This document shows, one piece after another, positions 9,832 to 53,811 of a stretch of DNA of 64,000 nucleotides (positions are counted from its first letter, which is position 1; each line of letters opens with the position of its first letter). A model generated the notes under the pieces. That model saw nothing but the letters and a program-made list of their open reading frames with translations. It was not told where the DNA came from and searched no databases. The position numbers and the translations under genes were made by a program. Source of the stretch: Nannobrachium achirus (taxonomy: Eukaryota > Chordata > Actinopteri > Myctophiformes > Myctophidae); contig OY997641.1 in the NCBI GenBank assembly GCA_963921795.1, forward strand, positions 54,436,450 through 54,500,449, in the 5' to 3' direction.

Positions 9832-12044
9832 CCGATTATATGACAAAGGTCACCTCCGTTTTGCTTGTGCCAGACGTGCGTCATCAGCATGTGCCATGGT
9901 GGAGAACATGTCTGCTTCCTGCTTTACATCGCCTTTCATACCAGCCACACAAGCCCTGCAGAGGTCCTTGCCGTCACAAATGGAAATATAAAGTTGAGAA
10001 TCAACACAGATACGAACACATGATGAGTGTTTATTTAATGAATGGCATGACGGGGCTTAAAGGAATGCAGTGTCACCACTAGTTTGATGCTGTGTCCTGA
10101 CAGCAGTTTCTGGTCTTGCTGTTTTCTGAGCTCTTTTTCATTCCTTTTTTCCTCCATCTTAAATAAAAAAGACATCCCAGAAAAACCATGCACTGCAGTA
10201 AGCAGTCATGCAAGACAGGGGAAGGATGATAAGAGAGAAAGATTAGGTAATAACATTATGTTTCATGGCAGATTGTGTTTTTCATGTTGTGTTTCTATTG
10301 TTGACCTGTAGGCTTTCATTGTCTCCCTTTTAGAATAGAAGACAGCCCAGAAACACTAGCTTGGCTATGGCCCCTGAATCGCTAGCCACGCCCATTAAAA
10401 AAATATATATATTCTGGCCATTAAGTGGTCTGGTGACGCTGTCGAAGGTGCGGCTTTCTCGGTTGAAAATCGAGTAAATGAACCAGTCTCACTTTGGCCA
10501 CACCTTTGGCTGCGCTGGGAGGGCTTTTAGACTGAATAATCATAATTCAGGCTACAGAAACACCAAAAGTGCAGCAGTAACCAGGTCCAGTCAGCCCCTC
10601 CAGTCCAAGGAAGCAATTAAGGTAGGCCTACTGTAAATGCTTGCAGCCATTGGTCGGTGTCAGCTCCACGCTTAAAGTATACTCTCAACCAATCACATAC
10701 AGCGCCCGATTTAAACTGTGTTGTTTGCATGGCTGATTCCTGCTTGCTGTTGCTGTCTGGGCAGCTGCTTGCTTGCTGCTACTGCTCACCCTCCACCACC
10801 CCAACTACTGTTTTGGATCTTCTTGTATGTGCTTTTGGGGATTCGGAATGACCTATTGGAAGGGGAGATGTAGTGTGCTCCATCAGAGTACATAAAAAGA
10901 GATCCATTCATTGCCAAACCAAAATAAATGTATTGCACATTTTTATATTCATTACAAATATATATATTTACTTCAATTATTGAGTTGTCCTTGCTGAACT
11001 GCTAGCACAGAATAATAAATGATCATTCCCCAATTACGACATACCCAGAACAAGGACGCTATAGGTTCAAGTGCTTAAGCCTTGTTGAAAGACTCAAAAC
11101 TATTTGATCTGTCAATCCAGATCCCTGATGATTATTAGTAGTCGTAGTATTGATGTTGTTTACAGTTTACAGTTTAGGCATTTAGCAGACGCTTTTAATC
11201 CAAAGCGACTTACAATAAGCAGATAATACATCACTATAATAAACAAGATAACATGTCAGAACATCAACAACAATATACAAATGCATATGAATATCAATCT
11301 AAAAAAAAACAATATCAGTAAAGAAAAAAGGATTCTAAAAAAACCTAAAAACAAATGCTAACTAGCTACATGTAAGGTCATTGAGTGTTTCAGTAGTGCT
11401 ATGGGTTTAAGTGGAGTCTGAAAAGGTGAGTCTTCAGTCCACGGCGAAAGCTGGCGAGTGAGTCCGTAGTTCTAAGTGCGACAGGGAGTTTATTCCACAG
11501 CTTGGGGGTCAGGAGGGCAAACTGTCTCGGACGAGTGGATTGTTGTTAATAATAATTATAATCTTTATTTATATAGCAGCTTATAGAGACAAAATGCATC
11601 TGAAAGTGCTTTACACAAAAGAAAATCATCAAAGAATGCATAAAACACAATAGAAGCAGATATATAAAATGAGCATAAAACTATGAAATGAGCATTAAAA
11701 CTGTACAAAAGCAACAAAACAAATTAAAATATTTATAAAAGATAATCACTAATATAGTCAAGACTGAATAAACATATCTTAAGATGACACTTAAAAGATT
11801 GTCTAGGTCCTCCAGAGGTATTCCAGAGGCTAAGGGCATAGCAACTAAAAGTGTCCTCTCTACTGTCTTGGTCCTGACTTAACTGAACTGTTCAGAGTTC
11901 AGTGCCAGGGAACCTCAGAGATCTACTTTATATCTTATGCTATGCATGATTATGGAGTGATCTACAGGTAACCAGTGCAGCGATCTTACCCATTTAGAAC
12001 AGGTACACATTATTGTGTATCATTATTTTATGCTTTAAGTATTG
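9832..12044. other. Intergenic, old dispersed repeats only
   Basis: I see no gene. At about 11165-11220 is the common fish repeat block TTTAGCAGACGCTTTTA followed by CCAAAGCGACTTACA. At about 11545-11660 is the TTTATTTATATAGCA...AAAGTGCTTTACA block seen in many fish dispersed repeats. The rest is AT-rich and unassigned. Confidence 0.4.
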
Positions 12045-12292
12045 AAAAATAGCAGATATACAAGCTCACAGCGCGGCACCGAGTGCCGCGCTGCGAGCTT
12101 GTAGATCTGCTATTTTTGAACATTTTTGAAAATTAGAATCTTTTGATTATTTATTTTTTTGAAAAACCCTATGTTTCTATGTCAGCAATCTGGCCAGCCA
12201 TCGTCAAAGAAAAGAGATCTACAATAGCAGATCTACAAGCTCGCAGCGCGGCACCGAGTGCCGCGCTGTGAGCTTGTATATGTGCTATTTTT
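12045..12292. repeat. Double-hairpin element, short version
   Basis: Two near-perfect hairpins (12045-12117 and 12223-12292) each have arms AGCAGAT(C/A)TACAAGCTC / GAGCTTGTAGATCTGCT and a GCGGCACCGAGTGCCGC core. They are separated by about 105 bp of unique spacer. The right hairpin runs into TGGTTAAAGCATTCAATAAT, which also edges the larger copies at 23898-24478 and 53223-53811. Confidence 0.85.
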
Positions 12293-23897: not shown

Positions 23898-24478
23898 TCT
23901 TAACCCATATAGGCCTAGAATTATTGAATGCTTTAACCAGTGAAAAATAGCAGATATACAAGCTCACAGTGCGGCACCGAGTGCCACGCTGCGAGCTTGT
24001 AGATCTACTATTTTTTTTAAAGTCGTGAAAATGTGTGCAAATCTTTGAATATATGTATTTTTAAAGCGAACGTTTGTAACTCAAATTTTGCTTCTGGGTG
24101 GTCCCTGGAACTAGATATTTTGAGATGGGGGTCCGTGGCCAAATAAATATCATTTTGGTTCTCAAAATGAAAAGGTTTGAGAACCACTGACATAGTAGTC
24201 TCTCAAGAACAGACTAACTGAGCTCCATTTAAGTGAAAAGGACCTTTTCTTTGACGATGGCCAGCCAGATTGCTGACATAGAAACATAGGGTTTTTCCAA
24301 AAAATCTTAGAAGGATTCAAAAGACACTTATAGAATCGTGTCAAAATTCTAAATTTCATGATTTTTCAAAAATAGCAGATCTACAAGCTCGCAGCGCGGC
24401 ACTCGGTGCCGCGCTGTGAGCTTGTATATCTGCTATTTTTCAATAGTTAAAGCATTCAATAACCCTAGGCCTAAATGG
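23898..24478. mobile_element. Double-hairpin composite element next to otopetrin exon 1
   Basis: The outer inverted ends are AACCCATATAGGCCTAGAAT and ATTGAATGCTTTAAC, mirrored by GTTAAAGCATTCAATAACCC and TAGGCCTAAATGGGTTT. Immediately inside each end is a hairpin (23942-24012 and 24368-24440). The centre carries an hAT-like TTTGAGAACCACTG end and is closely similar to 53223-53811. It finishes only about 145 bp before the otopetrin start codon and so must lie in the gene's promoter or 5' UTR. Confidence 0.8.
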
Positions 24479-24622
24479 GTTTAAATAGAGCTAGAAACAG
24501 CACAAAGATCAATTTTCTTTGGTGAAAAGATCTCACAACAGGCCAGAGACATCGTGTGTTTGAACCCGGGGTACCCCTGCGATTGTTTGACCACAGACGC
24601 TCCGTGTGAACCATGCAGGAAG

Positions 24623-27600
24623 ATGGCCAAAGACATGGAGATCGAGAAAGCCCACCTGTCCAGCAGCGACGTGGGCCTGGGGGCGACGTTGCCCGCCGTG
24701 CGGGACCCCAACGTGGACGCGTCGTCCGGCTGCGTGACGGAGGAGTGCGGGAACATGGGCCGGCTGATGTCCGGGGTCATCGCCCTCAACGTCCTGATGC
24801 TGGGCTCGGCCCTGGTCAGCGGGACGGCCTACAGCACGGTCACCTTCAGCTCCGCCGACCTGCAGGTAGGGGTGGGCGATTTAAGCAATATTACACGAGA
24901 GGGTGTGGTATAACTGAATTATTTGCACGACAGTGATGCGGTCAGGAACGAGCTGTAGGCGAATTCCGCCGAGCATCACTGGAGTGCAAATAATTCAGTT
25001 ATCCCACACCCTCGAGTGTAATATTGCAATTATACAACTGTTGCCCTTAAAAAAAAAACACGTCAACTTAATTTCATTGTAATTAACACATTGACCGCCA
25101 TTTTAACATACCTCCGTACTCCCACCTGCCATTCGTCTCCATAGACTTCCATGTAATTGGGTGTGCACGGATCATGCACACCCATGCCTAGATAATGCAC
25201 CACGTGTGTCCACATTGCTCACAGCTTTCAAACAAAAAAATCCGAATGGAAATCCGTTCAGGCATTCATGAGATAACAGCCACTATGTTTAACAAAGATG
25301 GCTGCCAAAATGGCTGCCATGCTTGAAAGATGGGGTTGCTATGGGGGTTAAACATGCAATTTCGCGATTGCTATCATGCCTACTCCATTTTTTGGGGTCC
25401 AAAACATTTTTTAAAAAAAAATTTTTTTTTGAATTTTTTTTTTTTTTTTTTAATTCTCGGGACTATCGGGCCTGGCGGGGAAAGACATTGGAATAATCTC
25501 GGGACTATCGGGCCTGGCAGGGAATGAGTTAAGATATTCAATAGGAATTTGTAATTTTTTGATGCCACATTTAGCTACTCTGTCCCTGAACGTCACATGA
25601 AAACCCCTAGCCTTGGCTGCCTAGCCGCCTAGCATAGTGTGGGGAGAGAGGCGCGCTTGCTGTCTTTCGTGACCATCGCAGCTGATTTCTTTACTTGATT
25701 ATGACAGTGCATCTGTGCTCGTTATATGCACGGTTGGAGAGCCTGTTTTCCATTGAGAGCCCGACTACCTGTTGTAAAAATGGTGATAATTATCGTTGAG
25801 ACGATACAATGTCTCCACGATACAATGTCTCCACGATATGCCTTTTCAGAGATATCGTATGTATCGTGATACAACTGAGGGAGCCTTGTACAAAATCCTG
25901 TTTAATCGTTAATGCAGAGATTCATGGGCGAATTCAATTTAAACCTGCATTTTGGTCTAAATCAGTAATTCTCAAACTTTAAAATGTCAAGGTCTCCACT
26001 TAACTCTGACAGCATACAAATGAAACCAAATGGACCCTTACGGGTCCATTTGGTTTCATTTGTATACTGTCAGAGTTACATACTTGTAAAGTTCAATTTA
26101 GACCTCCCAAAAGGAACCCACAGAGTCTAGTTTTTGTCAGGAACTTGAAAAATAACCATAAAAACGAACGTGAAAAAGAATCGTGATAAAATCGTGTATC
26201 GTGAATACAGATTGGGGAAATATGGTGATATTGTATTTTTCCATATCGCCCACCCCTACCTGCAGGTTTACCTCATCATTCTGATGCTCCTCTCCACCCT
26301 CTGGATGCTGTACTACACCAACAACACCACTCACAAAGATAAGGCTGTCCTCTTCAAGGATGCCCACGCCGGACCCATATGGCTCAGGGGTATGGATGCT
26401 ACAGTTAGTAAAGCGGGATGCAAATCCAAGGCTGATTTTTGTAGTTTGTTTTCCAGTTCAGGTTAAAAACCACAGCAGATTAAAAACGTGGCAGGCTTGT
26501 AAGCAATGCAACTAACTGCAGCTAATCAAGTTGATAATTTTGTTGAATTTGCATTTGCATTGACAATAGTCATCACTACACACATTTTTATTATTATTAG
26601 TTGCAGCTGCCTGATGCTGGTAATCTGCTGTAGTTTTTTAACCTGTCCTGAACTGGTAAACAAACGACAGAAATCAGCATAGGGTTTCATGCCTCTTATT
26701 ATTTGGTGGCGGTGGCGGCCTATTTTGAATTGACTATTCTTAGTCCATAATTTGTTTTTGTTTGTTGCTTTCTTTCCAGGGGGACTTGTGGCATTTGGCA
26801 TAGTCAGTCTCATGATGGACATTTTTAAGATTGCCAACTATATCGGCTACCTCCATTGTGACTCTGCGATCAAGGTGGTCTTTCCTGTCGTGCAAGTTGT
26901 GTTCATTTTCGTCCAGGTAAATAACGCAGACCACATCACAGTATGAGGATTGAATGGAAAACAAATCATTTTGTGTGATACAATTCCAATGAGTTGTTAT
27001 AATTGTTTCTTTAATTTGTTTCAGACCTACTTCCTGTGGTTCCATGCTAAGGACTGTGTGGAGCTGCAATGGAACCTAACACGGTAAAACTTACCAGTGA
27101 ATTTCCCTTTATCCGATAAAGTTTATAGCATGATTCACACATGGTAAACGTTGAAAAAAAATCGCTCACGGTTGCCAACTCTTGCCTCTCTTAGCTGTGG
27201 GCTGATGCTGATGCTGTCCACAAACCTAGTCCTGTGGATGACTGCTGTCACTGAGGAGTCCATACACCAAACAGCATTTCCAGATTCAGATCCTGAAGAT
27301 TTATCAGATAACACCACTCATCTCACATCTCGAAGCCTTCAGCTTCACATTGAGACAAGTAAGTATAAAGCATAAAGCAGTTGTTCTCAAAGTGGGGTCC
27401 CCAAAGTGGTTCTCAAAGTGGGGTCCCAGCTAAATTAGTTAAAGGGATATTCCACTTTCAAAAAAACTTTTGGTCATTGACTCATTTTATTGTCTAATCA
27501 GGCTTTTATGAACACCCTGAACAGTTTTTAATTTGCTTCATTCAATATTTAGATATTTGATGTAAATGTTACCTGGCCCTCCAGGCTCAGGCCTCTCCCC

Positions 27601-30600
27601 ACACACACCCATTGTAACTTCAAACTTCATTTTAACCATGATAGATTCATTAAAAACACCCATTATGTTTTCTGGTGACTCATATTACCCTCCTAATACG
27701 TGAGCAGACTGTGTTTTTTCAATAACTTTTTTCATTTATTTTTTATAAAATATTATTGTATTTAATTTTTTCCATTTTTCCAAAGAATTATTAAAAATAA
27801 AAGAAAAAAGTTATTGAAAAAACACGGTCTGCTCACGTATTAGGAGGGTAAAATGAGTCACCAGAAAAAATAATGGATATTTTTAATGAATCTATCATGA
27901 TTAAAATGGAGTTTGAAGTTACAATGGGTGTGTGTGGGGAGAGGCCCTGAGCCTGGAGGGCCAGATAACATTTACATCAAATATCTAAATATTGAATGAA
28001 GCAAATTAAAAACTGTTCAGGGTGTTCATAAATGCCTGATTAGACAATAAAATGACCAAAAGTTTTTTTGAAAGTGGAATATCCCTAATACTGTATATAG
28101 CATCAAAATCACTTTATCAGTATATTCCATTGATTTACAAGCTCACCAAACTGGTCGTGACTCGTGATGCAAAGTGTTGTGACCTTGTATATCTGTTTGT
28201 TTGGGGTTATCTTGAAAAAGTTTGGACAATTTTGAATATCTTTTGAAACATTCTAACAAAACAAATCTTGTATAGGGTCCCTGGCACAGCATTTTCAGAT
28301 GTGGTTGCGTGGCCAAATTACATAATTAATAGTTAATTTGCGGGTCCTTGACATGAACAAAATGTGATATAAAGCAAACAGACAAAACTGCCAACTGTGA
28401 CCTAATACATTGACCCCTTCACGCCGTCACATTTTGTTTAGTGAGCTACGGCGAAGACAAGTGCAAGTGCAGCTACTCTGCGTGCAAGATCATCAAGAAG
28501 GCCTACTACTACCTGTACCCCTTCAACATCGAGTACTGTCTCTTTGCGTCCTGCATGGCCTACGTCATGTGGAAGAACGTGGGCCGCCTCACCGACGAGC
28601 ACACCCATCCCCCCATCAAGTTCCGCGGCAAGGACATATTCTTCGGGCCCGTCGTGGGGATCCTCCTGGTGATAGCGGGCCTGGCGACCTTCGTGGTGTA
28701 CGAGGTGGAGATGGAGCAGAGCGACGTCCGCGTCAGAGACAACGCGCTGATGATGCACTTTGTGATGAATACGGTGATAGTGGCGCTGATGTCCGCCGCG
28801 ACCATGGTCGGCGTCGCCATCCACGTGCTGCACTACAGGTAGGGGTGGGCGATATGGAAAAGTACAATATCACGATATTTTCCCCAAGTTGTATCACGAT
28901 ACACGATTTTATCACGATTATTTTTCACGTTGGTTTTTATGGTACTTGACAAAAACTAGACTCTCTGGGTTCCTTTTGGGAGGTCTAAATTGAACTTTAC
29001 AAGTATGTAACTCTGACAGTATACAAATGAAACCAAATGGACCCGTAAGGGTCCATTTGGTTTCATTTGTATACTGTCAGAGTTAAGTGGAGACCTTGAC
29101 ATTTTGTATACTGTCAGAGTTAAGTGGAGACCTTGACATTTTAAAGTTTGAGAACCTACTGATTTAGACCAAAATGCAGGTTTAAATTGAATTCTGCAAC
29201 GAATCTCTGTATTAACGATTAAACAGGACGTTGTATAAGGCTCCCTCAATTGTATCACGATATATGCGATATCTCTGAAAAGGCATATCGTGGAGACATT
29301 GTATCGTCTCAGCGATAATCATCACCATATCGCCCTACAGGGAGCACGCGTCCGGGGAGAACCCCACGCGCAGCCTGGACGTCTTCCTGCTGCTCGGGGC
29401 GTCCATGGGACAGTTCATCATCAGCTACTACACCATCGTGGCCGAGGTGGGAACGGGAATCAAGACCCACCTGAACGGCCTCAACCTGGCCTGGAACATA
29501 CTGACCATCATCCAGGTCGGCGCGCAGAACCTCTTCCTCATCGAAGGCCTTCGCCGGGAGGCCTACCACGAGCCACACCCGGTTACCGTGTTGGCAAATC
29601 CATATGCGCCTCAAGGTAGGGCATTCGCCAAATATTCAAATATTCGAATATCAAAGTCACTATTCGACGTTGTTCACCGAAGTCGAATATTCGCTTATTT
29701 TTTATTGTTTTTTTCTTTAAAAAAAATTATAGTTTATAAAGCTTGGCTAGATAGGAAGTCATAAAAATGAGTTGTCAATGCCCCTGGTGGATGAATTTGT
29801 TAATGCTCTATACCAGGGGTTCTCAAACCTTTTTAGGCAGTGACCCCCAAAATAAACATATTTGAACTGGGGTCCCCCACCCTGACAAGCACTTGGAATT
29901 GTAGGTATTACTTTTAATGTGACTCGGTTCCACAGATACTAAATATTGTGAAAATAGCAGATCTACATGCTCACAACGCCTCGCAACTCGAGGCGTTGTG
30001 AGCATGTAGATCGGCTATTTTCACAATGTTTGCCTCTTGCTTCCTTAATATTTGACAGTTTGGCCAGCCCTGTCGAATATTCGACTATTCGAATACTTTG
30101 AGGTCGAATCATTCGAATACTAAAAATCACTATTCGTGAATGCCCTTCTTCAAGGCAGCAAAGACCTGAGCGTGCCGGAAGGTTCCGAAATCGACACCAG
30201 GACCACCACCAGGCCCGTGCCAAGCACAGTGCTCCCAACTCACAATGTGCCAGAATACCAGCCCAAGCTGACCTGGAAGAGAAGAGTCCTGAAGGAAGTC
30301 TGCGCCTTCCTGCTGCTTGGTAACGTTATTGTGAGTACTTACTTTCCCCCCTCATTTCCCGCTCTTTCACCCCTTTCGAACGATATCAACGCACTGAATG
30401 GGAATTTGTCACGTCTTTTCAGACCATTGAATGGTGCAGGAGCTGAGATACTGAGCAACCGGATGGGTTAATCATACCATTGATTGGGAGATAACGTGAC
30501 GAATTCCCATTCAGTGCGTTGATAGCATTCGAGGCCAGTGGCTCTTTAAATTCATTCATATAAAACTATCAAAATTATAAGTATATACAGCATGAAGCAA

Positions 30601-30808
30601 ATGCGTGTTTTTAGTTTTTTGTTTTTTTGATCAACAGCTCTGGTTTATGCCTGCCTTCGGTGCTCGGCCCCAGTTTGACCACTACCCTGACGCAAATTTC
30701 TACACATTCGCCATGTGGGCAGCAGTTGTCAACATTGGACTTCCTTTTGGAATCTTCTATCGTATGCATTCAGTGGCCAGTCTCTTTGAAGTGTATCTAA
30801 CCTCATAA
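24623..30808 (+). CDS. otop2: Otopetrin proton channel, otop2-like (complete, nine coding exons, 581 aa)
   Basis: Otopetrins are plasma-membrane proton-selective channels with twelve helices in two halves. Exons: 24623-24865, 26266-26389, 26780-26916, 27025-27083, 27195-27358, 28442-28838, 29341-29615, 30155-30330 and 30638-30808. All have GT-AG junctions, phases match, and the total is 1746 nt including TAA. Diagnostic blocks are DAHAGPIWLRGGL (exons 2-3), QTYFLWFHAKDC (3-4), YYLYPFNIEY and MWKNVGR (exon 6), NPTRSLDV and GQFIISYYTIVAEV (exon 7), LWFMPAFGARP and IFYRMHSVASLFEVYL (exon 9). The first helix is at about residues 47-67. I start at the ATG at 24623 because upstream frame sequence has no ATG and no homology; a further 5' exon is not excluded. 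NPTR.LDV, MPAFGARP and the C-terminus look closest to OTOP2, but the paralogue call comes from memory. Introns 1, 6 and 7 are exactly transposon insertions (separate entries). Confidence 0.93.
24867..26258 (-). mobile_element. hAT-like element constituting otopetrin intron 1
   Basis: Intron 1 is 24866-26265. The element begins TAGGGGTGGGCGAT and ends in the exact complement ATCGCCCACCCCTA. It is flanked by a perfect 8-bp duplication CCTGCAGG (24859-24866, 26259-26266). The first copy donates the G of the GT donor. The second donates the CAG|G acceptor, preceded by a pyrimidine-rich CCCACCCCTACCTG tract from the inverted repeat. Orientation is opposite to the intron 6 copy. A nested insertion of about 0.9 kb (roughly 24881-25785) includes a palindrome at 24886-25028. 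The right part holds a nested hairpin with ACTCTGACAG-type arms (about 26005-26078). Confidence 0.9.
24886..25028. repeat. Palindromic insert within intron 1 element
   Basis: The left arm GCAATATTACACGAGAGGGT reappears inverted as ACCCTCGAGTGTAATATTGC, with further paired ATAACTGAATTATTTGCAC and GTGCAAATAATTCAGTTAT blocks. The total is about 143 bp with a short unpaired centre. Confidence 0.85.
26418..26692. mobile_element. Inverted-repeat MITE within otopetrin intron 2
   Basis: The left arm contains GCTGATTTTTGTAGTTTG and the right arm its complement near 26658-26678, with CCAGTTCAGG/CCTGAACTGG also paired. It lies well inside the intron (26390-26779) and does not touch the splice sites, unlike introns 1, 6 and 7. 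A related arm appears at about 53996-54062. Confidence 0.75.
27443..28086. repeat. Fold-back palindrome within otopetrin intron 5
   Basis: The sequence starts GGGATATTCCACTTTCAAAA and its inverse ends in GAAAGTGGAATATCCC. The arms pair along their whole length with matching GTAACTTCAAACT, ATCATGGTTAAA-like and TATTAGGAGGGTA blocks. It is homologous to, but about half the size of, the palindrome at 13215-14545. It occupies most of the intron (27359-28441) but lies away from the splice sites. Confidence 0.88.
28840..29334 (+). mobile_element. hAT-like element constituting otopetrin intron 6
   Basis: Intron 6 is 28839-29340. The element begins TAGGGGTGGGCGATATGG and ends CACCATATCGCC. The inner sequence is the reverse of intron 1's right part (ATCACGATACACGATTTTAT, the CTCCCTCAATTGTATCACG block, and others). 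The left target copy is ACTACAGG (28832-28839). The right copy is CTACAGG (29335-29341) because about 9 bp spanning the last bases of the repeat and the first base of the duplication are missing. TACAG|G supplies the acceptor, and the last G of the first copy plus the T of the element supply the donor. It is the same family as intron 1, inserted the other way round. Confidence 0.88.
29617..30147. mobile_element. Second hAT-like family constituting otopetrin intron 7
   Basis: Intron 7 is 29616-30154. The element begins TAGGGCATTCGCCAAATATTC and ends GAATAGTGA-complement and GTGAATGCCCTT, so 10 of the outermost 12 inverted-repeat bases match. Target copies are CCTCAAGG (29609-29616) and CTTCAAGG (30148-30155), 7 of 8 identical. 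The donor and acceptor are again built from AGG plus TAGGG. The middle contains a perfect hairpin of the window-wide module (29947-30026) and an hAT-like GGTTCTCAAACC block. Confidence 0.88.
29947..30026. repeat. Hairpin module inside the intron 7 element
   Basis: The arms TTGTGAAAATAGCAGATCTA and CATGCTCACAACGCCTCG are paired with CGAGGCGTTGTGAGCATG and TAGATCGGCTATTTTCACAA. The stem is about 38 bp with one mismatch. The core differs from the GCGGCAC type found at 12045 or 53264, although the outer arms are the same. Confidence 0.93.
30376..30533. repeat. Palindromic MITE within otopetrin intron 8
   Basis: The left arm ATCAACGCACTGAATGGGAA is inverted at the right as TTCCCATTCAGTGCGTTGAT, with TTGTCACGT/ACGTGACGAA also paired. 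It sits inside intron 8 (30331-30637) away from the splice sites. Confidence 0.85.
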
Positions 30809-35199: not shown

Positions 35200-35600
35200 T
35201 ACTTAGCTATCGAAAAATAGCAGATATACAAGCTCACAGCGCGGCACAGAGTGCCGCACTGGGAGCTTGTAGATCTGCTATTTTTGAAAAGTTGTGAAAA
35301 TGTGTGCAAATCTTTGAATATAAGTATTTTTTAAGCGAACATTTGTAACTCAAATTTTGCTTCTGGGTGGGGGTCCCTGGAACTAAATATTTTGAGATGG
35401 GGGTCCGTGGCCACATACATATCATTTTGGGGGTCCTTCACATGAAAAGGTTTGAGCTCCACTGACATCGAAACATAGATTTTTCAAAAAACCTTAGAAA
35501 GATTTGAAATATTCAAAGATTTTCATGATTTTTCAAAAATAGCAGATCTACAAGCTCACAGCGCGGCACTCGTGTATCTGCTATTTTTCAATAGTTAAAG
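35200..35600. mobile_element. Double-hairpin element, third copy, damaged right hairpin
   Basis: The left hairpin is at 35213-35285 and the right at 35535-35588, which has lost its inner arm after GCGGCACTCG. The spacer is the same as in 23898-24478 and 53223-53811, including TTTGCTTCTGGGTGG and GAAACATAGA blocks. Confidence 0.8.
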
Positions 35601-41246: not shown

Positions 41247-41969
41247 TCATTGTGCACAGACGTCAGTGTATCTGATAAAGTACCTGATGGTCATGTCAAT
41301 TTTGCTTTTGATCCATCTGAGGTAGTGCCTCACTCTGGTGTACACCCCAGGGTAGGTGTCCTTGCCACCAAACTTAGATCCACCACACAGCATGTTGTCA
41401 GTGAGCCTGCCAAAGTAGAAAAAACTGCACCAGGGGATGATTGGTATGTCCACAACACGTAGGACAACAGAGAGGTATAAACCGTGGTAATACGTCACAC
41501 CCCAGCCACTAGTCGTGCAAGAGGCGCCGTTCTTTATTGGTGGGGTGTTGTTATCAGGCAGCGGGACTGGCTTGACATAGTAGTTGAATTGCACCGATTC
41601 ATTTAACTTCACGAGCATGATGTCATTATTGAAGGTGTAGCGCTGATATGCATGGGTAAATATCTTGGAGACCGTGAAGACCTGCTCTCTGCCCTCTGAT
41701 ACCAAAAGGCTGTGCTCGCCCAACACCACCCTCTGCGGATGGGTGGTGGGCCTCCTGCAGTGGGCAGCAGTCACCACCCACCGCTCGTTGACCAGGGTCC
41801 CTCCACAGTAATGTATCCACAGACCTTCCTTCCTAAGATACTGCAGAGAAGCAACATATGGAATAGAGTGCGGCCGAACCTCCTGACCACCGATGATTGC
41901 ACGTGTCTCTGTCACAGAGAGAGAGAGAGACAAAAGGAGAAGCAACGAATACCTTATCGTCTGAACCAT
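41247..41969 (-). CDS. Intronless granzyme/mast-cell-protease-like S1A protein lacking the catalytic-serine segment
   Basis: The 240-residue single-exon frame has an N-terminal signal peptide (about residues 1-24, Leu/Ser-rich), then the zymogen junction IIGGQEVRPHSIPYVASLQ, typical of granzymes and mast-cell proteases. The HYCGGTLV block and catalytic His in VVTAAHC are present, as is the catalytic Asp in NNDIMLVKL. After MLCGGSKFGGKDT the sequence jumps to YPGVYTRV. Compared with the sister gene at 43012-43797, about 30 codons are missing in frame, including GDSGGP with the active serine. Serine proteases of this family usually have five exons, so a one-exon copy suggests retrotransposition before tandem duplication. 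A minus-strand AATAAA lies at 41166-41171. It is predicted inactive; whether this is a pseudogene or a kept non-catalytic protein is open. Confidence 0.85.
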   Translation of the reverse strand: MVQTIRYSLLLLLSLSLSVTETRAIIGGQEVRPHSIPYVASLQYLRKEGLWIHYCGGTLVNERWVVTAAHCRRPTTHPQRVVLGEHSLLVSEGREQVFTVSKIFTHAYQRYTFNNDIMLVKLNESVQFNYYVKPVPLPDNNTPPIKNGASCTTSGWGVTYYHGLYLSVVLRVVDIPIIPWCSFFYFGRLTDNMLCGGSKFGGKDTYPGVYTRVRHYLRWIKSKIDMTIRYFIRYTDVCAQ

Positions 41970-43011: not shown

Positions 43012-43797
43012 TCAATTTATCGAAAAATTAATCACATCTTTGATCCAGAAGACGTAGTTCCTCACTTTGGTGTACACATCAGGGAAGTATGGGCTGGCAC
43101 AACCGATGCCCCAAGAGTCAATGCCCTCCAATTTCCCATTGCAGATAAGTGGACCACCCAAGTCACCGTGGCAGGTGCCCTTGCCACCATACCGAGATCC
43201 AGCACACAACATGTTGTCATTGATCATGTACAGGTAGTAATAATGACACCTGGGGATGACTTGTACGTCCACAGCACGTAAGACAGGAGAGAGGAGTCTG
43301 TTACTGTAGACATGCATCGCACCCCAGCCGCTCACTGTGCAAGAGGTGTGGTACTGTACTGGTGGGGTGTTTAGATCAGGCAGAATGATTGGCTGGACAA
43401 CGCTGTTGAGTTGCACCGATTCACTTAACTTCATGAGCATGATGTCATGATTGTGGGTGTAGATATTAAATCCACGGAAAAATATCTTGGAGACATTGAA
43501 GACCTGCTCAAAGCCCTCCTGTAGCCAAAGGTTGTGCTCGCCCAACACCACCCTCAGCATAGAGGCCGCGGGCTTCCAGCAGCGGGCAGCAGACAACACC
43601 CACTGGCTGTGGATCAGGGTCCCTCCACAGTAATGTTTCCACTCCCCGCCTTCGAATCCATACTGCAGAGAAGCCTGATATCTAATAGAGTATGGTGTAA
43701 CCTCTTGACCACCGATGGCGATGATTGCACATGTCTCTGTCACAGAGAGAGAGAGAGACAAAAGGAGCAGCAACGAATACCTTATTGTCTGAACCAT
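43012..43797 (-). CDS. Intronless granzyme/mast-cell-protease-like S1A pseudoprotease (His and Ser replaced)
   Basis: The 261-residue single-exon frame has the same 20-residue signal start as the sister gene. The fold is complete: HYCGGTLI, THNHDIMLMKL with the catalytic Asp, SCTVSGWG, MLCAGSRYGGKGTC, SWGIGCA and the C-terminal helix WIKDVINFS. Two triad positions are changed: His57 is Arg (VLSAARCW) and Ser195 is Leu (GDLGGP). A 6-bp duplication also changes the zymogen junction to AIIAIGGQEV, which would disturb the free Ile16 N-terminus. The position equivalent to residue 189 is Gly, as in granzyme-B-like enzymes. All paired cysteines remain, so a folded but non-catalytic secreted protein is plausible. 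A recently decayed gene is the alternative. Confidence 0.87.
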   Translation of the reverse strand: MVQTIRYSLLLLLSLSLSVTETCAIIAIGGQEVTPYSIRYQASLQYGFEGGEWKHYCGGTLIHSQWVLSAARCWKPAASMLRVVLGEHNLWLQEGFEQVFNVSKIFFRGFNIYTHNHDIMLMKLSESVQLNSVVQPIILPDLNTPPVQYHTSCTVSGWGAMHVYSNRLLSPVLRAVDVQVIPRCHYYYLYMINDNMLCAGSRYGGKGTCHGDLGGPLICNGKLEGIDSWGIGCASPYFPDVYTKVRNYVFWIKDVINFSIN

Positions 43798-48762: not shown

Positions 48763-53214
<4,452 letters not shown>

Positions 53215-53222
53215 TACACATC

Positions 53223-53811
53223 AACCCATTTAGGCCTAGAATTATTGACTGCTTTAACCAGTGAAAAATAGCAGATATACAAGCTCACAGCGCGGCACCG
53301 AGTGCCGCGCTGCGAGCTTGTAGATCTGCTATTTTTGAAAAATCCTGAAAATTTGAATTTTGACCCCGATTCTATAAGTGTCTTTTGAATCCTTCTAAGG
53401 CTTTTTTTGGAAAAACCTATGTTTCTATGTCAGCAATCTGGCCAGCCATCGTCAAAGAAAAGGTCCTTTTCACTTCAACTGGAGCTCAGTTAGTCTGTTC
53501 TTGAGAGACTACTATGTCAGTGGTTCTCAAACCTTTTCATGTCAAGGACCCCCAAAATGATATGTATTTGGCCACGGACCCTCATCTCAAAATATTTAGT
53601 TCCAGGGACCCCCCAGAAGCAAAATTTGAGTTACAAACGTTTGCTTTGAAAATACATATATTCAAAGATTTGCACACATTTTCATGACTTTTTCAAAAAT
53701 AGCAGATCTACAAGCTCGCAGCGCGGCACTCAGTGCCGCGCTGTGAGCTTGTATATCTGCTATTTTTTTATAGTTAAAGCATCCAATAATTTTAGACCTA
53801 AATGGGTTCTT
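53223..53811. mobile_element. Double-hairpin composite element, fourth copy, abutting itpripl2 stop
   Basis: The outer ends are ACCCATTTAGGCCTAGAATT and AATTTTAGACCTAAATGGGT. Hairpins lie immediately inside (53264-53336 and 53695-53766), each with a GCGGCAC...GTGCCGC core. The spacer holds hAT-like GTGGTTCTCAAACC sequence. It would form part of the itpripl2 3' UTR. Confidence 0.88.

Follow-up and report, generated by a model that had tools for sequence, protein, structure and literature searches.

The stretch of DNA analysed here (the window, 64,000 nucleotides) comes from the myctophid fish Nannobrachium achirus (GenBank assembly GCA_963921795.1, contig OY997641.1, positions 54,436,450 to 54,500,449 of the forward strand). 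It harbors an intact OTOP2-like otopetrin gene on the plus strand, whose nine exons between 24623 and 30805 encode 581 amino acids. An earlier note on this DNA had claimed that introns 1, 6 and 7 of the gene are bounded by TAGGG-ended transposons and a target duplication, and the sequence and the repeats at the junctions confirm this. Each of the three introns starts one base 5' of a TAGGG-ended inverted-repeat element and ends one target duplication past it; excision keeps a single target copy and leaves the reading frame open. We consider it very likely that a hAT-like transposon with ends TAGGGGTGGGCGAT and duplications of 8 base pairs (bp) is a facultative introner and the source of OTOP2 introns 1 and 6, with intron 7 derived from another element.

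Once joined, the nine exons form a frame that is free of stop codons over all 581 residues.

24623..24865, plus strand: exon 1, with the ATG at 24623, placed by the joined frame and by alignment to OTOP2 relatives
26266-26389, 26780-26916, 27025-27083, 27195-27358 and 28442-28838, plus strand: exons 2-6, with the older introns 2-5 between them
29341..29615, plus strand: exon 7, placed by the joined frame and alignment to relatives
30155-30330, plus strand: exon 8, placed by the joined frame
30638-30805, plus strand: exon 9, with the stop codon directly after it; the old intron 8 separates exons 8 and 9

The junctions of introns 1, 6 and 7 (24865/26266, 28838/29341 and 29615/30155) fall in phases 0, 2 and 1, as had been read before, and the otopetrin frame that results from them aligns to relatives. 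The alignment of the joined protein to the OTOP2 structure 8ug6 in PDB (E = 2.1e-142) passes junctions 1 and 6 without a gap and has a 2-residue gap in 8ug6 at junction 7, in a poorly conserved loop. Ten OTOP2 relatives (at least eight fishes) align over all three junctions without a gap ('SADLQ/VYLII', 'HYR/EHAS', 'YAPQ/GSKDL'; the slash marks the junction), and one relative, P0105, carries two extra residues two positions past junction 7. Rooted on two salmonids, a tree of 120 relatives places the window protein as sister to the remaining 118 and shows it on a long branch. Translation probably starts at 24623, since the upstream start codon (about 24554) is GTG here; by eye, the upstream peptide of other fish OTOP2 proteins (MCLNTGYPC...) can still be followed in frame over 24554-24622. 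A translated comparison found no paralogous otopetrin within the window. Within the old intron 5 (window 27440-28090) there is, by eye, an apparent long and near-perfect inverted repeat with arms of roughly 300 bp, seemingly another transposon.

The three introns in question are built from the following parts.

24859..24866, plus strand: left target duplication CCTGCAGG of intron 1, read from the sequence
24866..26265, plus strand: intron 1, 1400 bp, made up of the final G of the left target, a single element, and seven bases from the target copy on the right
24867..26258, plus strand: element 1, TAGGGGTGGGCGAT...ATCGCCCACCCCTA, with identical 14-bp inverted repeats and nested repeats inside
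26259..26266, plus strand: right target copy CCTGCAGG of intron 1, which provides the acceptor CAG/G
28832..28839, plus strand: left target duplication ACTACAGG of intron 6, from sequence comparison
28839..29340, plus strand: intron 6, 502 bp, of the element-1 family in opposite internal orientation, absent from relatives
28840..29334, plus strand: element 6, with the left repeat intact and the right repeat short by about 9 bp
29335..29341, plus strand: right target copy CTACAGG (7 bp) of intron 6, with the acceptor CAG/G
29609..29616, plus strand: left target duplication CCTCAAGG of intron 7, from sequence comparison
29616..30154, plus strand: intron 7, 539 bp, a different TAGGG-ended element, absent from relatives
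29617..30147, plus strand: element 7, TAGGGCATTCG...GAATGCCCTT, with an imperfect inverted repeat and a nested hairpin repeat at about 29941-30031
30148..30155, plus strand: right target copy CTTCAAGG (1 mismatch) of intron 7, with the acceptor AAG/G

Identical direct repeats of 10, 7 and 6 bp lie at the splice junctions of introns 1, 6 and 7, respectively. The junctions of introns 2, 3, 4, 5 and 8 have repeats of just 0-3 bp and no element ends, in agreement with the earlier note. Its description of the three insertions as exact holds for intron 1, where the 14-bp inverted repeat is intact at either end and the CCTGCAGG duplication is perfect. It holds for intron 6 on one side; the right end lacks about 9 bp (CGCC/CTACAGG) and the duplication is therefore 7 bp. 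It holds loosely for intron 7, whose duplication CCTCAAGG/CTTCAAGG contains one mismatch. The assignment to a single hAT group likewise stands in part. Over about 480 bp, introns 1 and 6 share 85% identity with opposite internal orientations and thus represent, by this comparison, two separate insertions from a single family. Intron 7 comes from a different family: it begins TAGGGCATTCGCC, and TAGGG is the only part that it has in common with introns 1 and 6. The donor scores of the three introns are 8.9-9.0 and those of the older introns of the gene 5.4-9.6.

Orthologues had been named beforehand as the test of the claim, and the comparison covers OTOP2 introns 6 and 7 and the site in LMTK2 described below. 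The joined exons 6, 7 and 8 (283 amino acids) matched 177 proteins, 120 of them listed, and the named ones are fishes. Junctions 6 and 7 both lie within one alignment in 118 of the 120 matches listed, and none of the 118 relatives has an insertion of more than 13 residues. Among these 118 listed relatives, 101 read on past exon 8 as 'NVI/VS', which is the translated donor GTGAGT of intron 8, and 10 read on as 'LW', as in the spliced sequence. A frame that continues through the intron 8 donor is unspliced, and hence exons 6, 7 and 8 are a single exon in the 101 relatives; no element-free introns were found there. The intron 8 donor has the identical position in relatives and window, and the heads of the unspliced relatives suggest that intron 5 also ends at the identical place. 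By these alignments, introns 6 and 7 are absent from the relatives found, and for these two introns the comparison did not refute the claim.

A search of the host genome for the element ends, which had also been proposed, was productive. The assembly (1.66 Gb in 564 contigs) contains 4217 exact copies of the 14-bp end TAGGGGTGGGCGAT and a single copy of the reversed control. AGG stands directly before 234 of the 4217 ends (5.5%, vs 1.6% under equal base use), and part of this excess is target preference. We fetched 92 of the first 100 listed AGG places (of the remaining eight, three are those of the window and five were omitted), which after removal of duplicates gave 90 AGG ends at 87 loci. 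A far end was found for 66 AGG ends, with a perfect 8-bp duplication in 48 cases and one mismatch in 16; 16 of 22 control ends had a perfect 8-bp duplication. Position 3 of the target is preferentially T (50/90). Where both ends were measured, 49 of 68 elements are 361-551 bp long. The presence of TAGGGGTGGGCGAT at both element ends gives short terminal inverted repeats of the hAT type, for which (C/T)AGGG is typical, and the 8-bp duplications together with these short TAGGG repeats point to a hAT-like family. The longest frame in six longer copies has 112 amino acids, which gives no hAT transposase in these copies, and no genome-wide search for an autonomous copy was made; the element is apparently numerous and non-autonomous. 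Most copies examined lie outside coding exons. The element thus does not look like a dedicated introner; it resembles a common miniature inverted-repeat transposable element (MITE) whose end makes an intron where the target allows.

The suggestion that an exonic insertion of such an element at AGG becomes an intron is supported by further copies. An end was called exonic where the coding frame is kept with one target copy, or where the left side is coding and the right end was not reached. In this way 22 of the 90 AGG ends were judged to be inside coding exons with the frame kept: eight with homology that spans the join or is present on both flanks, four with homology on one side, and ten with a reading frame only. 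A Pfam family was matched by 11 of 30 peptides (a few loci were submitted twice).

Ends judged exonic, part 1: L010, L025, L026, L030, L035, L037, L043, L047, L059, L061, L063
Ends judged exonic, part 2: L064, L066, L070, L079, L085, L087, L091, L094, L095, L097, L098
Pfam match spanning the join or present on both flanks: TTC39 (L010), RING/B-box (L030), rhodopsin-like receptor (L070), leucine-rich repeats (L085, L095)
Pfam match spanning the join or present on both flanks, at 33.1 bits just below the cut-off of 33.6: NCOA (L063)
Pfam match on the left side only: olfactomedin (L059), immunoglobulin domain (L064), Nup88 (L091, with the join one residue from the end), piggyBac-like transposase (L026)

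The LMTK2 locus (L043) joins into 865 amino acids around an element of 1173 bp. All 120 listed relatives (485 were found) align over the join, 113 of them gap-free within 14 positions. In 46 listed relatives there is no kinase motif and the frame passes the donor after 'VTVYLFDQ', so that these are unspliced giant exons, uninterrupted at the element site. On this comparison the LMTK2 intron is new in this fish. A second member of the LMTK family (L047) has its own copy of the element; its best LMTK2 match is 52% identical over about 60 amino acids across the join. Low-complexity frames (L036, L041, L055) and loci with unclear left flanks (L020, L028, L038, L062, L071) were left out of the exonic count. 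At the leucine-rich repeat locus L085, when joined to L119, the LRRC4-like frame breaks again at about position 1055 after ...HRLERV, with no TAGGG element seen; this is perhaps another new intron of other origin. Extrapolated from the first-listed places and the judged cases, copies with intact ends might account for some 57 introns (22/90 x 234).

Strand and target were compared as well. A codon score above 5 in the upstream flank was obtained for 13 of 90 AGG ends in sense, 3 of 90 in antisense and 5 of 612 noncoding windows, and a score above 10 for 7, 0 and 0; in our reading the score misses many GC-rich exons. Stop-free flanks were tried as a coding test and discarded: with 40 sense and 40 antisense of 90 they hold no strand information, since GC-rich coding sequence lacks stops on either strand. 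Among 66 non-AGG ends, 2 exceeded a codon score of 5 in sense and 8 in antisense. Several of the ends that scored are the opposite ends of AGG elements, and L115 and L118 are control inserts adjoining an exon. C directly precedes AGG in 18 of 24 exonic ends (the 22 and the two of the window) vs 22 of 69 others (Fisher p = 0.0003; binomial p = 1.7e-5 against 31.7% expected, a hand estimate from a codon table); in the exonic ends this base is never T and is G in two. By eye, the longer pyrimidine run is at the far end in 15 of 20 classified exonic ends vs 21 of 49 others (p = 0.019).

The control consisted of 27 elements with unselected targets (28 loci, two of which are one element). One of the 27, L104, is a coding-exon insertion, by reading and with no Pfam match. 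Its target is GGTAAAAC, and its junctions are GATGAG/GTAAGAC and CCCAG/GTAAAAC; with the intron taken out, the empty site is recovered to the last letter. The left target copy has one changed base, which brings it closer to the donor consensus. From its letters, even this exception could be spliced, in a register other than that of the AGG cases. The judged exonic fractions, 22/90 vs 1/27, differ with p = 0.024; with a control this small and calls that were not blind, they suggest but do not prove that AGG copies are enriched in exons.

In the mechanism that we propose, the element inserts into a coding exon at a target ending in AGG and an 8-bp duplication is made. As the sequences show, the left target copy and the T of the element form a donor AG/GTAGGG, the C-rich far end would serve as part of the pyrimidine tract, and the right target copy supplies an acceptor AG/G behind it, with the frames preserved. 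The spliceosome, using these junctions, would then take out the element and exactly one target copy and leave the message unchanged, and an insertion with an unchanged message would be tolerated as near-neutral and might become fixed. OTOP2 introns 1 and 6 would have been born by this route, in this order of events, and intron 7 likewise from the other TAGGG-ended element. It seems likely that this is a genome-scale introner system in a vertebrate, in which the ends of a hAT-like MITE are pre-adapted and any AGG target in a sense exon would yield a splice-neutral intron, with dozens of introns, more than one splicing register and possibly the help of other TAGGG-ended families.

The three introns could instead be old and have been overrun later by transposons that chance to reach the splice sites. 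Introns are a common place for transposons, and nested repeats are found in intron 1 and in the element of intron 7. However, the continuous exon of the relatives refutes old introns 6 and 7, barring a loss in those relatives. For intron 1 the argument is that duplications straddle the splice sites in introns 1, 6 and 7 only. We regard this account as hardly credible. The insertions might also be ordinary exon disruption, with a dying gene or with elements kept in the message; no RNA was seen, the upstream start is GTG (about 24554) and the OTOP2 branch is long. We hold this to be very improbable: 581 codons are open and aligned to relatives, many judged exon copies lie in frame and CAG/G is preferred, and plain disruption predicts neither of the latter two. 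It is also improbable that the exonic copies elsewhere are due to an insertion preference for AGG targets and GC-rich coding sequence rather than to splicing, with the OTOP2 introns as isolated events. The 234 of 4217 ends after AGG do exceed the equal-base expectation, T at position 3 is favoured too, and the homology-supported exon count is not above that of the small control. Yet such a preference leaves the excess of sense over antisense coding flanks (13 vs 3 of 90) and the C before AGG in exonic copies only unexplained; L104, the sole coding-exon control, also has a donor and an acceptor that restore the empty site, and the LMTK2 intron is new.

Several points weigh against the introner reading that we favor. 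The homology-supported exonic cases, 8/90 vs 1/27 in the controls, do not differ (p = 0.68), and the exonic class was assigned by eye with the hypothesis known, not blind. The frames at L026 and, probably, L025 encode transposases rather than proteins of ordinary host genes. The keratin-like locus L050 has an AGG target with its two sides in different frames and was not counted; nor were L012, L017, L051, L084 and L090, which lie at or near apparently pre-existing splice sites. At these five loci the AGG target may overlap the exon end, and the insertion may then move an old splice site, not create an intron. The relatives of exons 6, 7 and 8 may include paralogues beside orthologues. No transcript from this species was found, the best OTOP2 match being 65% identical. 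AGG followed by the end of the intron 7 element occurs only twice in the host genome, and hence a numerous family for element 7 is unsupported.

Introners have been described from 175 of 3,325 genomes; animals and land plants together contribute just two groups, both of them animal, and that survey reports no pattern of introner gain for vertebrates (PMC9860276). Some introner families take both splice sites from the target (PMC9860276). As in the introners of algae, dinoflagellates, fungi and copepods (PMC9860276), dispersed transposon copies fill whole introns here, splice sites come from the target duplication, and message length would be unchanged, as it is in most of those families. Unlike those systems, the present one is found in a teleost and is built on a hAT-like element, most examined copies of which lie outside coding exons. 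On the features compared, the present system would work like an introner: similar copies form whole introns in several genes (OTOP2 introns 1 and 6, LMTK2 and the judged cases, as read from sequence), and the splice sites derive from the element and target duplication, with excision predicted to be exact (L104 in another register).

The nearest vertebrate precedent is slc26a2 of notothenioids, whose introns 3 and 5 are transposon-like (PMC12357937). These too are teleost introns of transposon-like sequence, and the gt-ag of intron 3 lies in direct and inverted repeats. Unlike here, one gene is concerned, NTE-1 starts with tgt and ends with aca and has repeats of 4 nucleotides, and the accessible text describes no genome-wide set of further introns (PMC12357937). 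The introns of fish MC2R/MC5R and other receptors were likewise gained in intronless genes, mostly at proto-splice sites MAG/R; unlike here, repeats lie inside some of them, and an element with matching ends and a duplication is not shown in the portion available (PMC3151243). The introner elements of Amoebophrya share the inverted repeats and the direct repeats that overlap exon boundaries; their splice sites are mostly non-canonical and their direct repeats 3-5 nucleotides long (PMC7789003), whereas here we find GT-AG and 8 bp. Intron positions are settled by neither PMC3038909 nor PMC12124190, in the parts accessible. In the open-licence literature that was searched, we found no paper on introners in a vertebrate and no report of a genome-wide set in one.

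How new introns originate has long been asked, and vertebrates were thought to be almost static in this respect. Many introns of this lineage appear to be young and still carry readable birth marks, so that intron gain, its cost and the rules of splice-site survival would become directly testable in a vertebrate. The system suggests, too, that its end sequence alone can turn an ordinary transposon into a good intron maker.

Elsewhere in the window, two adjoining uninterrupted trypsin-family frames lie on the minus strand (41247-41969 and 43012-43797). Serine proteases carry the motif GDSGG, in place of which the second frame reads GDLGG; the two frames are possibly retrocopies or inactive enzymes. 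A long frame at 51796-53214 contains a Mab-21 C-terminal domain. Copies of a palindromic hairpin repeat, about 70-90 bp in length, are scattered over the window at 12036-12116, 24369-24449, 29941-30031 (within the intron 7 element) and 35214-35284, with further copies at 50349-50419, 53265-53335 and 53696-53766.

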